A model generated the notes under the pieces. That model saw nothing but the letters and a program-made list of their open reading frames with translations. It made no database searches and was not told where the DNA came from. The position numbers and the translations under genes are program-made. DNA of 62,425 nt, from assembly GCA_944324655.1 (NCBI GenBank), contig CALUXF010000008.1, positions 1-62,425 on the forward strand, written 5' to 3'. The DNA is from Candidatus Avelusimicrobium aviculae. GTDB lineage: Bacteria; Elusimicrobiota; Elusimicrobia; Elusimicrobiales; Elusimicrobiaceae. Positions 31,908 to 36,826 of the stretch are shown here, piece by piece. Within the stretch, counting starts at the first letter, position 1. Every line of letters starts with the position of its first letter.

Positions 31908-32204
31908 ATGTCTATAAAACAAGATAAGGAATTTGACGCTAAACTGATGAACTTTGACGGGGACCGCTATGACGTGGTGGTTTTGGCGTCTATCTGGGCC
32001 AAAGAATTAAAAAAGAAAGACGAATATAAAAACCAGCCCAACGCCGTGGTGATTAAAGTGGCGTTGGATGACATCATTTCCGGGAAAGTTTCCAAAGAAG
32101 AAGTGCTTAAAATCAGCAAAGAAAATTTAGAAGCTGAATTAAGAGCGCAGGAAGAAGCCCGCAGAGAGGCCGAACGCAAAGCCAAAGAGCCGATGAAGTT
32201 ATAA
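31908..32204 (+). CDS. rpoZ: RNA polymerase omega subunit
   Basis: A 98-residue protein in the normal rpoZ position after gmk. The core has RYDVVVLASIWAKEL and NAVVIKVALDDIISGKV, matching the omega pattern (fExVxxAxxRARQL...KPxxxAxxEIaxGKI) in a divergent form. The C-terminus is a charged Glu/Arg/Lys helix. Omega helps assemble and stabilise the beta-prime subunit. Shine-Dalgarno AGGGAG precedes the ATG. Confidence 0.82.
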   Translation: MSIKQDKEFDAKLMNFDGDRYDVVVLASIWAKELKKKDEYKNQPNAVVIKVALDDIISGKVSKEEVLKISKENLEAELRAQEEARREAERKAKEPMKL

Positions 32205-32212
32205 ACCGCATT

Positions 32213-33223
32213 ATGGCAGATAAATCCGTACGCGTTTTAGCGGCTGAATTAAAAAATTTTCTTTCAGCCCATGAAGAGGAAGACTTTGTATCGGCGGCCG
32301 CCCAACCAGCGGCCGCCGGGTTTTCGCGCGTAACGGGGCAGGAAGATAATACCCCTGCACAGTCCCAAACATCCCCTGCCGCTCCGGTTTTACATCAGGA
32401 AGTTTCTCCCTCCCCCAAACGGCCTTCCCGGCAAATGGGTGAGGTTTCCCAGCCGCCGCAAGACACGTTAACTGTGTTTTTTGGTCAGGCGGCGCCGCAG
32501 CATCCGCAGCCCATCACGGTGGAAAAACCCCAGCCGGTTGTTTCCGCCCCGGTTTGCCCACCGGCCCAAGCCCCTGTTGGAGGAGTCATGACAACGGAAG
32601 AAAAAACCGCCGCGCTGGCTGAACTGGCCGACACCATTAAAAATTGTTCCCGCTGCCCCCTTGGGGATACGCGCTTAAACGCCGTACCCGGGGAAGGCAA
32701 TGTAAACGCCCGTTTAATGTTTGTGGGGGAAGGCCCGGGATATGACGAAGACCGCCAAGGCCGCCCGTTTGTGGGCCGTGCCGGGCAGCTGTTGGATAAA
32801 ATGATTGCCGCCATGGGTTTAAAACGGGAAGAAGTTTTTATAGCCAATATTGCCAAATGCCACCCTATGGTAGACCCCCAACACCCGGAAAAACACGGCA
32901 ATGACCGCGCCCCCAACGCGCAGGAAATCGCCTGCTGCCGCAAATATCTGGAAAAACAGATTTCCATCATCATGCCGGAAATAGTGGTGGCTTTGGGAGG
33001 CGTATCGGCCAAAGCGTTGATTGCGGACGCCAAATCTTTAGGGGCGTTGCGCGGGAAATTTTATACATTAAGCTTGGACAATGTTTCTCTTCCCCGCCCC
33101 GTTAAAATATTGGCCACTTTCCACCCCGCCGCTTTGCTTCGTAACCCGGGTTGGAAAAAAGACGCCTGGGCCGATTTGCAAATGGTCATGGCGCATATGG
33201 GCTTAAAAGCCCCTTCCAAATAA
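32213..33223 (+). CDS. Uracil-DNA glycosylase family 4 (iron-sulphur) with disordered N-terminus
   Basis: A 336-residue protein. The C-terminal 200 residues are a family 4/5 uracil-DNA glycosylase that starts base excision repair. It has cysteines for a 4Fe-4S cluster (CSRC near 144-147, KCHP near 216, ACC near 240), the active-site region FVGEGPGYDEDRQGRPFVGRAG and the C-terminal TFHPAALLRNP. The first 125 residues are Pro/Gln/Ala-rich and probably disordered. Similar tails occur in relatives, but their role is unknown. It occupies the slot where coaBC often lies between rpoZ and priA. Confidence 0.88.
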   Translation: MADKSVRVLAAELKNFLSAHEEEDFVSAAAQPAAAGFSRVTGQEDNTPAQSQTSPAAPVLHQEVSPSPKRPSRQMGEVSQPPQDTLTVFFGQAAPQHPQPITVEKPQPVVSAPVCPPAQAPVGGVMTTEEKTAALAELADTIKNCSRCPLGDTRLNAVPGEGNVNARLMFVGEGPGYDEDRQGRPFVGRAGQLLDKMIAAMGLKREEVFIANIAKCHPMVDPQHPEKHGNDRAPNAQEIACCRKYLEKQISIIMPEIVVALGGVSAKALIADAKSLGALRGKFYTLSLDNVSLPRPVKILATFHPAALLRNPGWKKDAWADLQMVMAHMGLKAPSK

Positions 33224-33232
33224 GGTCCTTTT

Positions 33233-35203
33233 ATGTTTTGCAAGGTTGTGTTTGACGTTCCGCTGGACCGTGACTTTGACTACCATATCCCCCCTGAACT
33301 GGAACCTTTGGTTAGGCCGGGCGTGCGTGTTACGGCTCCGTTCGGCCCGCGGCTTACGGCGGGGTTGGTGTTGCAGGTTACTCCTTGCTGTGAATTAAAT
33401 AATATTAAAATTAAAGACATCGCCTGCGTGGTGGACAGCCGCCCCGTATTTGGCAGTGATTTGTTTGAGCTGGCCTCTTTTATGAAGAAAACCTGGGGCG
33501 GGGCCATTGGCCAAATCTTATTTTCTTTGGTTCCTCCCCAGCCTTATTTTAAATTGCAGGAAAGTGCCGCCCCGGCGCCGTTTGTCCCCCAATCGGCATG
33601 CGTCTTGCACACTCCCCAACAGCAGACGGTGTTTCAGGAGCTTGCCTCTTCCCCGGCCTATGAGTATTACCCGGTTTTACTAAGCGGACCGGCAGGAACC
33701 GGCAAAACTGCGCTTTGTTTGAAATTGGCCGAAAAAGCCCTGCAAAATTTTGGGCAGACGCTTATTACCGTGCCTGACATTGTGGCCGCCAAAGATTTTA
33801 TTTCCCTCGCCAAAAAACAATTTGGGGAAGAATACGTTTTTTGCTGGCACAGCAAAACCCCACTGGCTCAAAAGAAAAAATACTTTTCCGCCGTGGCAAA
33901 CGGAGTGCCGTGTGTGGTAATTGCCATGCGCTCGGGCATATTGCTTCCTTTTAAAAACCTGCGTTTGGCTGTGGTTTTGCAGGAAGAAGATGAAAACTAT
34001 AAGCAGGAAGAAAACAAACCGTACTATCACGTGCGGGATTTAGCCCTTTTTCGCGGGCAAATGCACTCCGCTATGGTGGCGTTTGTTTCCCAAACACCCA
34101 GTTTGGAGATGATGCGTCTTGTGCAAGAAGGGCGGGTGAGCCATTACCAATTAAGCCAAAAACTACCCGGAACGGACTATTCCCCCCAAGTAAAAATTAC
34201 ACAAAAACGCGGGGAACATTCCAAATATATTTCTGATTTTTTAGCGCAGGAAATACGCCAAAATTTAACCCGCAAAGAACCGGTTTTATTATTGCTTAAC
34301 CGCCGGGGTTATTCTAACGCCTATTATTGCTTAAACTGCGGGGAATACGCCCGGTGTAAAAAATGCGGGGCCATTCTCTCGCGCGAAAACACGCCCGAAC
34401 ACGGGGATTTTTTATTATGCAAAAAATGCGGCGCGCATGAACCGTTGGAGCAAAAATGCCCCAAATGCGCCAATTTGATTTTTAAATCCCGCGGCGGCGG
34501 AACGCAAAAAATAGTAACGGAAGTGCAAAAGCTCTTTCCGCAGGCGCGCATTTTGCGTTTGGATTCGGACACGTTAAAAACCAAATCCGGCCAAGGGCAT
34601 GAGGCCGCCCAAGCCATTTCCAGCGGGCAGGCGGATATTTTAATAGGCACCCGCCTGGCCGCCAGCGCCGCAAATGGGCGCAAAATTACGCTTTTTGGCG
34701 TATTGGACGCGGATTTGGAACTGGACAGCCCGGACTTCCGCGCCAGTGAAAAATTCGGCCAGCTTTTGTTTCATTTGCGTTACTGCGCCGGCTGTACAGC
34801 GGGCGGCAGGCTGGTTGTGCAGGCTTCCGGGCCGGATATTTATCCTTTTGCGTTTGTGGAAAACGGGGATTGGGAAGCCTCTTTCCAACAAGAACTGGCT
34901 TTGCGGGAAGCTTTTCAATATCCCCCCTTTGTGCGTTTGGTGCGCGTTACGCTAAAAAATAAAGAATATAAAGAGCTGGAAAAGCAATCCGCCCGTTTAA
35001 AAGCCTTGTTTAAGGGCTGCGCGCTGGAGGTTGCCGGCCCCGTTTCCTGCGGCAAAAAAACGGATAAATTAAAAAAGCAATACCTGTTGTTTAAATTAAC
35101 GCAGGAGCAATACTTCCCCGCCGTGGCGGCGTTGGACCGTTTGTCCGCTCAAGAGAAAAAGTATCCGTTTAAACTTTCGGCAGACCCGTATGACTTTTAC
35201 TAA
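33233..35203 (+). CDS. priA: PriA-like primosomal protein with degenerate helicase motifs
   Basis: A 656-residue replication-restart protein. The N-terminal DNA-binding domain (VVFDVPLDRDFDYHIP) and both zinc-binding clusters (CLNCGEYARCKKC and CKKCG...CPKC) are intact, as is Walker A (GPAGTGKT, about 150). Helicase motif II, DEEH in active PriA, reads LQEE (about 248-251). Motif III GSATPSLE reads VSQTPSLE, and motif VI QVxGRAGR reads HLRYCAGC (about 513-520). It probably keeps fork binding and loader recruitment without unwinding. A helicase-dead PriA is known from Deinococcus. The gene is the last of the gmk operon. Confidence 0.88.
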   Translation: MFCKVVFDVPLDRDFDYHIPPELEPLVRPGVRVTAPFGPRLTAGLVLQVTPCCELNNIKIKDIACVVDSRPVFGSDLFELASFMKKTWGGAIGQILFSLVPPQPYFKLQESAAPAPFVPQSACVLHTPQQQTVFQELASSPAYEYYPVLLSGPAGTGKTALCLKLAEKALQNFGQTLITVPDIVAAKDFISLAKKQFGEEYVFCWHSKTPLAQKKKYFSAVANGVPCVVIAMRSGILLPFKNLRLAVVLQEEDENYKQEENKPYYHVRDLALFRGQMHSAMVAFVSQTPSLEMMRLVQEGRVSHYQLSQKLPGTDYSPQVKITQKRGEHSKYISDFLAQEIRQNLTRKEPVLLLLNRRGYSNAYYCLNCGEYARCKKCGAILSRENTPEHGDFLLCKKCGAHEPLEQKCPKCANLIFKSRGGGTQKIVTEVQKLFPQARILRLDSDTLKTKSGQGHEAAQAISSGQADILIGTRLAASAANGRKITLFGVLDADLELDSPDFRASEKFGQLLFHLRYCAGCTAGGRLVVQASGPDIYPFAFVENGDWEASFQQELALREAFQYPPFVRLVRVTLKNKEYKELEKQSARLKALFKGCALEVAGPVSCGKKTDKLKKQYLLFKLTQEQYFPAVAALDRLSAQEKKYPFKLSADPYDFY

Positions 35204-35665: not shown

Positions 35666-36826
35666 ATGACTATTGACGAACAAATTAATTTTTTAACGCG
35701 CGGCTGCGTGGATGTCGTATCCAAGGCTGATCTAGCCAAAAAATTGGAAAGCGGCAAAACCTTAACCATTAAACTGGGCTGTGATCCCACCAGTGCGGAC
35801 CTGCACCTAGGCCACAGCGTAGTGCTTTCTTTACTGCGCCGTTTTCAGGATTTAGGGCATAAAGCCGTTTTGGTGATAGGTGACTTTACGGCCGCCGTGG
35901 GGGACCCGTCCGGCCGCGATTCCACCCGCCCCGTCCTTCCCCGTGAGAAAATTTTAGAAAACGCCAAAACCTATACGGACCAAGCTTTTAAAGTTTTGGA
36001 TCCTGCCAAAACCGAAGTGCGCTTTAACAGCGAATGGCTGGACCCGTTTGTTTCCGGCAAAAGCCTGATGCAAACCTTGCAAAAAGTAACCGTGGCGCAG
36101 GTATTGGAGCGCGAAGATTTCAAAAAACGCATGGCGGACGGAAACCCCATCAGCCTGTTGGAAGTGCTTTACAGCTTGTTCCAAGGGCAGGATTCCGTAG
36201 CCTTAAAGGCGGACGTGGAACTGGGCGGAACGGACCAAATATTTAACTTGTTGGTAGGCCGCCAGCTGCAAAAAAACAACGGACAGGAACCCCAGGTGGC
36301 CATTACGGTGCCGTTACTGGTGGGTATAGACGGAGTGAAAAAAATGTCCAAATCTTACGGCAATTATGTAGGGTTGAACGACCAGCCTAACGATATGTTT
36401 GGCAAAATTATGTCTATATCCGACGAATTGATGATTTCTTATTACGAGCTGTTAACCTCCGCCGATATGGCCCAAGTAAAAGCCATGCACCCCATGGAAG
36501 CCAAAAAACAGCTGGCGGGGTTGCTTACCAGCCGTTTCCACGGGGAAGAAGCCGCCCAATCCGCCCGGGCCAATTTTGAGCAGGTCTTCTCCAAGAAGCA
36601 AAACCCGGACGAAATGCCTGAATTTAAACCGCAGGAAGGGGCTCTGTTGTCTGCCGTTATTTTTGCCGCGGGAGCGGCCCAGAGCAAAAACAAAGCCCGC
36701 GCGTTAATTGAACAGGGCGCTGTGCGTTTAAACGGGGTAAAGGCGGAGCAAGACGCCCCCCTCTCGTTTGAAAACGGGGCCGTGCTGCAAATTGGGCGGC
36801 GTACTTTCTTAAAATTGGTGAAATAG
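35666..36826 (+). CDS. tyrS: Tyrosyl-tRNA synthetase
   Basis: A 386-residue class I synthetase. The HIGH-type motif is HLGHSVVL (about 47-54), the KMSKS loop is KKMSKS (about 229), and a C-terminal S4 RNA-binding domain (ARALIEQGAVRLNGVKA) is present. Length and motifs fit the TyrZ-like subgroup better than the E. coli TyrS. No T-box leader is seen. Shine-Dalgarno GGAG at about 12 nt. mltG follows after 4 nt. Confidence 0.96.
   Translation: MTIDEQINFLTRGCVDVVSKADLAKKLESGKTLTIKLGCDPTSADLHLGHSVVLSLLRRFQDLGHKAVLVIGDFTAAVGDPSGRDSTRPVLPREKILENAKTYTDQAFKVLDPAKTEVRFNSEWLDPFVSGKSLMQTLQKVTVAQVLEREDFKKRMADGNPISLLEVLYSLFQGQDSVALKADVELGGTDQIFNLLVGRQLQKNNGQEPQVAITVPLLVGIDGVKKMSKSYGNYVGLNDQPNDMFGKIMSISDELMISYYELLTSADMAQVKAMHPMEAKKQLAGLLTSRFHGEEAAQSARANFEQVFSKKQNPDEMPEFKPQEGALLSAVIFAAGAAQSKNKARALIEQGAVRLNGVKAEQDAPLSFENGAVLQIGRRTFLKLVK

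Follow-up and report, generated by a model that had tools for sequence, protein, structure and literature searches.

The window, a stretch of 62,425 nucleotides of Candidatus Avelusimicrobium aviculae DNA, carries on its forward strand (33233..35203) a gene for a protein of 656 residues, which profile matches and an AlphaFold model identify as priA and which is predicted to encode a pseudohelicase. The translated open reading frame (ORF) scores 335 bits against profile TIGR00595 (cut-off 230) and 73 bits against PF17764, the 3' DNA-binding domain (3'BD; cut-off 22.7), and solved PriA chains resemble it, with 4nl4 at E 4.8e-71. The narrower PRK models of NCBIfam are also matched, each below its own cut-off. 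Among them PRK05580 reaches 401 bits and the PRK14873 models at most 176 bits, which sets the protein apart from actinobacterial PriA, the type covered by PRK14873, which is described as lacking the helicase motifs and as probably not a helicase. The preliminary description of this DNA had proposed looking for a second PriA; a profile search of the source genome (G000; 1.62 Mb, 53 contigs, 95% complete) found the window gene as the sole one. Four weaker TIGR00595 matches, all below the cut-off, were rejected as further copies because they fall in three other SF2 genes (L002, L003/L005, and L004), taken by size and motifs to be Mfd, RecG, and UvrB.

On the same strand, priA is preceded by a gene for a uracil-DNA glycosylase (UDG) superfamily protein (32213..33223; PF03167) and followed by a putative tyrosyl-tRNA synthetase gene (35666..36826), named from a reading of its sequence. 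Families of the phylum are designated here by codes, of which we infer f1 to be Elusimicrobiaceae and f1 plus f2 to be Elusimicrobiales. A UDG gene lies inside the fetched stretch at 33 of 34 f1 loci, 18 of 21 f2 loci, and 39 of 55 loci of families with intact motifs, the stretches differing in length, and this proximity fits PriA orthology. A small ORF of 98 residues (31908-32201) between the guanylate kinase and UDG genes has no Pfam match at 1e-3; its position and look, and the usual gene order, suggest that it may encode RNA polymerase omega.

The protein is composed of the 3'BD (33242..33535, residues 4-101), two helicase lobes, a zinc region with eight cysteines (34328..34468, residues 366-412), and a C-terminal domain that is PriA-like in the model (34838..35200, residues 536-656), all of which are shared with E. 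coli PriA (6dcr, 6dgd, and 8fak). The AlphaFold model (pLDDT 86.7) has its best PDB match in a winged-helix deletion of E. coli PriA (Z 35.5, rmsd 3.3, 521 aligned), and the top five entries are all PriA (Z 31.9-35.5), the next entry having Z 23.8. The window protein is thus predicted to fold like PriA. At the place of the E. coli winged-helix domain, which not every PriA has, the window protein contains a fast-changing linker (33545..33637, residues 105-135) that forms a loop in the model, with dN/dS of 0.33 and 0.56 in two more distant pairs and 0.09 in the closest. The linker has a median of 53 residues in f1 versus 125 residues in E. coli, and medians range from about 33 to 63 across the families of the phylum (setting aside f10, whose value of 0 stems from sequence trimming). 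Because the model of a motif-intact relative (L155) also shows a loop here, the short stretch is not tied to loss of the motor. Motif-intact PriAs of the same class and phylum have both the short linker and the zinc region in common with the window protein, and resemble each other more in the lobes than in the 3'BD.

All eight zinc cysteines are aligned in 33 of 34 f1 rows and in 21 of 21 f2 rows. In the 3'BD, positions F16, Y18, and K61 are mostly retained, and the position of E. coli D17, which varies in the intact families too, holds Y, H, or C in f2. The earlier statement that Walker A, the zinc clusters, and the DNA-binding domain are conserved therefore holds for Walker A, the eight cysteines, and the 3'BD, but not for the winged-helix stretch, which is a short loop.

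Helicase motifs of the window protein

Motif I (Walker A) is intact as SGPAGTGKT (33683..33709, residues 151-159), and the alignment shows two further kept segments, motif IV (LLLNRRG, 34289..34309) and the stretch YYHVRDLA (34022..34045), which we take to be the aromatic-rich loop. The Walker B position (motif II) is occupied by LQEE (33977..33988, residues 249-252) and the motif VI position by HLRYCAGC (34772..34795, residues 514-521), as the preliminary description had noted for both (in place of DEEH and QVxGRAGR), and both motifs are lost. The loss extends to the genus, where the 22 sequences fetched have GK[ST] in 22, DE in none, and motif VI in none. To the motifs listed earlier we add a broken motif V, GTRLAASAANG (34646..34678) versus GTQMLAKGHHF in E. 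coli, recognized from the alignment and from genus conservation, and the altered motifs Ia (VPDIVAAKD, 33770..33796) and Ic (IAMRSGI, 33920..33940). Motif III does read VSQTPSLE (34085..34108, residues 285-292) instead of GSATPSLE; calling it lost was an overstatement, since only G and A are gone, S, T, and P being retained, and S286 is conserved in 21 of 22 genus sequences and T288, P289, S290, and E292 in all 22. The loss of helicase motifs in 33233-35203 is confirmed. Compared with an active SF2 helicase, the protein has the GK[ST] of Walker A and is devoid of the DExH of Walker B, motif V, and the arginine finger of motif VI.

Many genus members show LDEGD or LDEQD at motif II, which would suit an active helicase with shifted or replaced motifs, with DEGD or DEQD one residue on acting as Walker B and the finger supplied by a different arginine. 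The details make such a helicase very improbable. Position 249 is L in 21 of 22 genus sequences and F in the other, and at the shifted position 250 only 14 of 22 have D; the others have N, G, Q, or K, and the window protein has Q. In the model of the window protein the Walker B strand spans residues 243-249 and ends at L249; in that of the intact relative (L155, pLDDT 89.1) it spans 249-255 and ends at D255, so that L249 takes the place of the Walker B Asp. Moreover, nothing constant has taken over from motif VI, and the Lys-Gly of motif V is missing. A shifted Walker B, which the preliminary description had named as grounds for abandoning its claim, was rejected on the variability of position 250 and the predicted strand end, and the predicted structures indicate that the Asp is replaced rather than moved.

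The P-loop residues G152, P153, G157, K158, and T159 are identical in all 22 genus sequences, encoded by 4, 4, 4, 2, and 4 different codons, respectively. On this sequence evidence, the P-loop is still under selection in the window's genus. The ratio of lobe identity to 3'BD identity, which carries no correction for depth, is 1.00 in the genus, 0.86 in f2, and 1.09 in f14/f16, versus 1.38 in intact PriAs of the same class (153 of 190 pairs usable) and 1.33 in f13. The extra constraint on the lobes appears to be gone in the genus, yet the lobes are still conserved.

Motor loss and selection across the phylum

PriA matches were obtained in 90 of 90 genomes by a family search at E 1e-3 and in 230 of 244 at E 1e-30. 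The 119 fetched, a subset of these (f1, n = 34; f2, n = 21), were aligned with E. coli PriA (NC_000913.3). Genes split on broken contigs (e.g., in G001, G014, G039, G040, G046, G070, and G080) were left out, and 25 named loci that overlap with genomes already counted were kept out of the counts. Motifs I, II, and VI occur together in 53 of 55 sequences of the motif-intact families (f3-f11, f13-f17, f19, and f23-f25). One of the two misses has a trimmed start and shows GVTASGKT and QVAGRAGR in its full ORF (L064), and the other is interrupted by X (L148).

In Elusimicrobiales, motif VI is found in 0 of 34 f1 and 0 of 21 f2 sequences (0 of 55 in the order), the DE of motif II in 1 of 34 and 7 of 21, and GK[ST] in 30 of 34 and 3 of 21, being lost in f1g2, f1g6, and 18 of 21 f2 sequences. 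In motif V, the Q/K is changed to R in 23 of 34 f1 and 16 of 21 f2 sequences, versus none of the 56 motif-intact sequences, E. coli PriA among them, a further mark of a single origin of the loss in the order. Parsimony places the loss of motif VI first, on the stem of Elusimicrobiales, and the other motifs probably decayed separately by lineage. The alignment across the phylum that the preliminary description had called for places the loss, by parsimony, on the stem of the order. This order of decay is readable because Elusimicrobiota, unlike the Deinococcus case discussed below, include close motif-intact relatives.

Outside the order, nine sequences from f18, f20, f21, and f22 are also without GK[ST] and motif VI. 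Family f20 mirrors the window's genus, with DE in 4 of 4 and GK[ST] in 0 of 4 sequences. Its members L102, L106, L110, and L111 are strongly decayed, and for four of the eight zinc cysteines just two of these sequences have the residue aligned.

In an rpoB tree (single gene, midpoint root), to which 26 of 30 genomes queried contributed, f1 and f2 form one clade (100/99) whose sister is the motif-intact f7, and f18 groups with the motif-intact f13 and f17 (100/99). At E 1e-100 rpoB was not matched in G087, G177, G200, and G219, assemblies that are 89-96% complete, probably due to contig breaks. The starred branches of the tree force three state changes. Regain of a lost motor is unlikely, and the three forced changes would therefore represent at least three losses in the phylum, a count that rests on this single-gene tree and would rise to four if f20 and f21/f22 are not one clade (midpoint root). 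A tree of PriA itself (52 rows, motif columns excluded) shows three label changes, of which its starred branches force one only; long branches meet in it and it is poorly resolved.

Extreme decay of PriA is seen in the f8-type genera of f2, in f18, and in f20, and 6 of 28 genomes queried at E 1e-17 gave no PriA match (G119, G192, G193, G195, G261, and G262), which may stem from assembly gaps or divergence. Both observations would suit neutral decay of an unneeded gene heading for loss, an explanation to which we give very little credence for the window gene. Its dN/dS is 0.09 and 0.096 against relatives with 96% and 85% protein identity (dS about 1 in the second pair), the helicase lobes have values of 0.06 to 0.12, and the open frame and zinc cysteines are retained throughout the order. 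The window priA is under purifying selection. An assembly error or pseudogene was ruled out by the same dN/dS values, by the genus-wide loss, and by the intact motifs of the three other SF2 genes of the source genome.

Restart partners and a proposed role at forks

Among the candidate partners, the loader DciA is matched in 220 of 244 genomes of the phylum, including the source genome (30.5 bits, cut-off 24); the 24 of 244 genomes with no match belong to both motif-broken and motif-intact families. PriC, another gene that had been suggested for checking, is found in 0 of 92 genomes of the order, and DnaB_2/DnaD in 0 of 21. No PriB match exceeds the cut-off in 21 genomes, and the sub-threshold matches in 5 of them are all at SSB genes. 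The absence of detectable PriB and PriC distinguishes the window's system from that of E. coli, as does the lack of the winged helix, Walker B, and motifs V and VI in PriA. The DnaC/IstB profile is matched in 21 of 21 genomes, mostly partially and in other AAA+ ORFs. In addition, the source genome has RecG, three UvrD-like genes, and an SSB ending in EDDVPF, an intact tip of a kind present in an ORF at 24 of 29 SSB loci.

The best reading of the window PriA is that unwinding has been lost and the P-loop, 3'BD, and zinc region kept, the lack of activity being deduced from its motifs. We consider it likely that PriA serves as a pseudohelicase, marking forks and bringing in DnaB/DciA with no unwinding of its own. 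Through the 3'BD, the zinc region, and helicase lobes that are dead as a motor, PriA would recognize branched DNA where a fork has stopped, and once bound it would form a platform for reloading DnaB with DciA. To our knowledge, no contact between PriA and DciA has been described in any species. PriA would neither hydrolyze ATP nor strip the nascent lagging strand; forks would therefore need a ready single-stranded lagging template or opening by another helicase, for which the UvrD-like genes and RecG are candidates. In evolutionary terms, the motor would have been lost once on the Elusimicrobiales stem, and the remaining motifs would then have decayed differently in each lineage.

This proposal has precedents. 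PriA of D. radiodurans has no ATPase or unwinding activity and binds ssDNA, forks, and DnaB, and its genome is without a clear PriB or DnaT (PMC4504706). E. coli PriA assembles primosomes even when its ATPase is dead (PMC4504706), a finding that has made the purpose of the PriA motor puzzling. DciA acting with PriA has been suggested for Caulobacter (PMC9825169). Like the D. radiodurans pseudohelicase, the window gene is a PriA ortholog with broken catalytic motifs that is maintained by selection. The parallel with Deinococcus drawn in the preliminary description is thus real but not exact. In Deinococcus-Thermus the Walker A lysine is changed to arginine and in D. radiodurans motif II is a poor match (PMC4504706), whereas in the window's genus motifs II, V, and VI are gone and Walker A is whole, with GKT in the window and K158 in 22 of 22 sequences. 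In family f2, the residue aligned to the Walker A lysine is Arg in 12 of 21 sequences.

The P-loop kept in 22 of 22 sequences through synonymous codon change and the S/T of motif III, as read from the alignments, are hard to reconcile with an ATP site that is entirely idle and count against the pseudohelicase reading. Since the window's genus keeps the P-loop, unlike D. radiodurans PriA, non-hydrolytic ATP binding may still matter. ATP bound at the P-loop and left unhydrolyzed could close the lobes on DNA and time the handover to DnaB, a gated clamp that we regard as possible but unlikely. Such a clamp would account for P-loop residues that stay invariant in the genus despite varied codons, for GK[ST] in 30 of 34 f1 sequences, and for the retained motif III S/T; against it, neither the Walker B Asp nor the arginine-finger motif VI remains, and f1g2, f1g6, and 18 of 21 f2 sequences have lost GK[ST], so that ATP binding would be dispensable across the order, and a structural role may explain the retention of the P-loop. 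The wider proposition, that the motor was lost recurrently (at least three times in the phylum) and that the genus's dead motor is now a nucleotide-gated clamp timing fork handover to DnaB/DciA, is likewise doubtful. If the clamp is true, a dead motor has turned into a switch, and it is switching rather than unwinding that sets when the fork is handed over to DnaB and DciA.

A pseudohelicase PriA is already known as a kind from Deinococcus-Thermus. As far as our searches show, what is new is the phylum, the recurrence of the loss inside it, a decay whose order can be read, and a P-loop outlasting the rest of the motor; these searches, which were sensitive to wording and left most subscription papers outside their coverage, found no account of PriA in Elusimicrobiota. 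The motif-intact families and the motif-broken groups, at least three in number and at different stages of decay, form a natural series within one phylum, in which one can ask when unwinding is dispensable, which residue is lost first, and what role the lobes have after the death of the motor. Five sequences from f14 and f16 (L135, L136, L144, L145, and L146) have HxxGRxGR as motif VI and DEED as motif II with the rest intact, and their lobe to 3'BD ratio is 1.09; this state is perhaps an early stage of decay.
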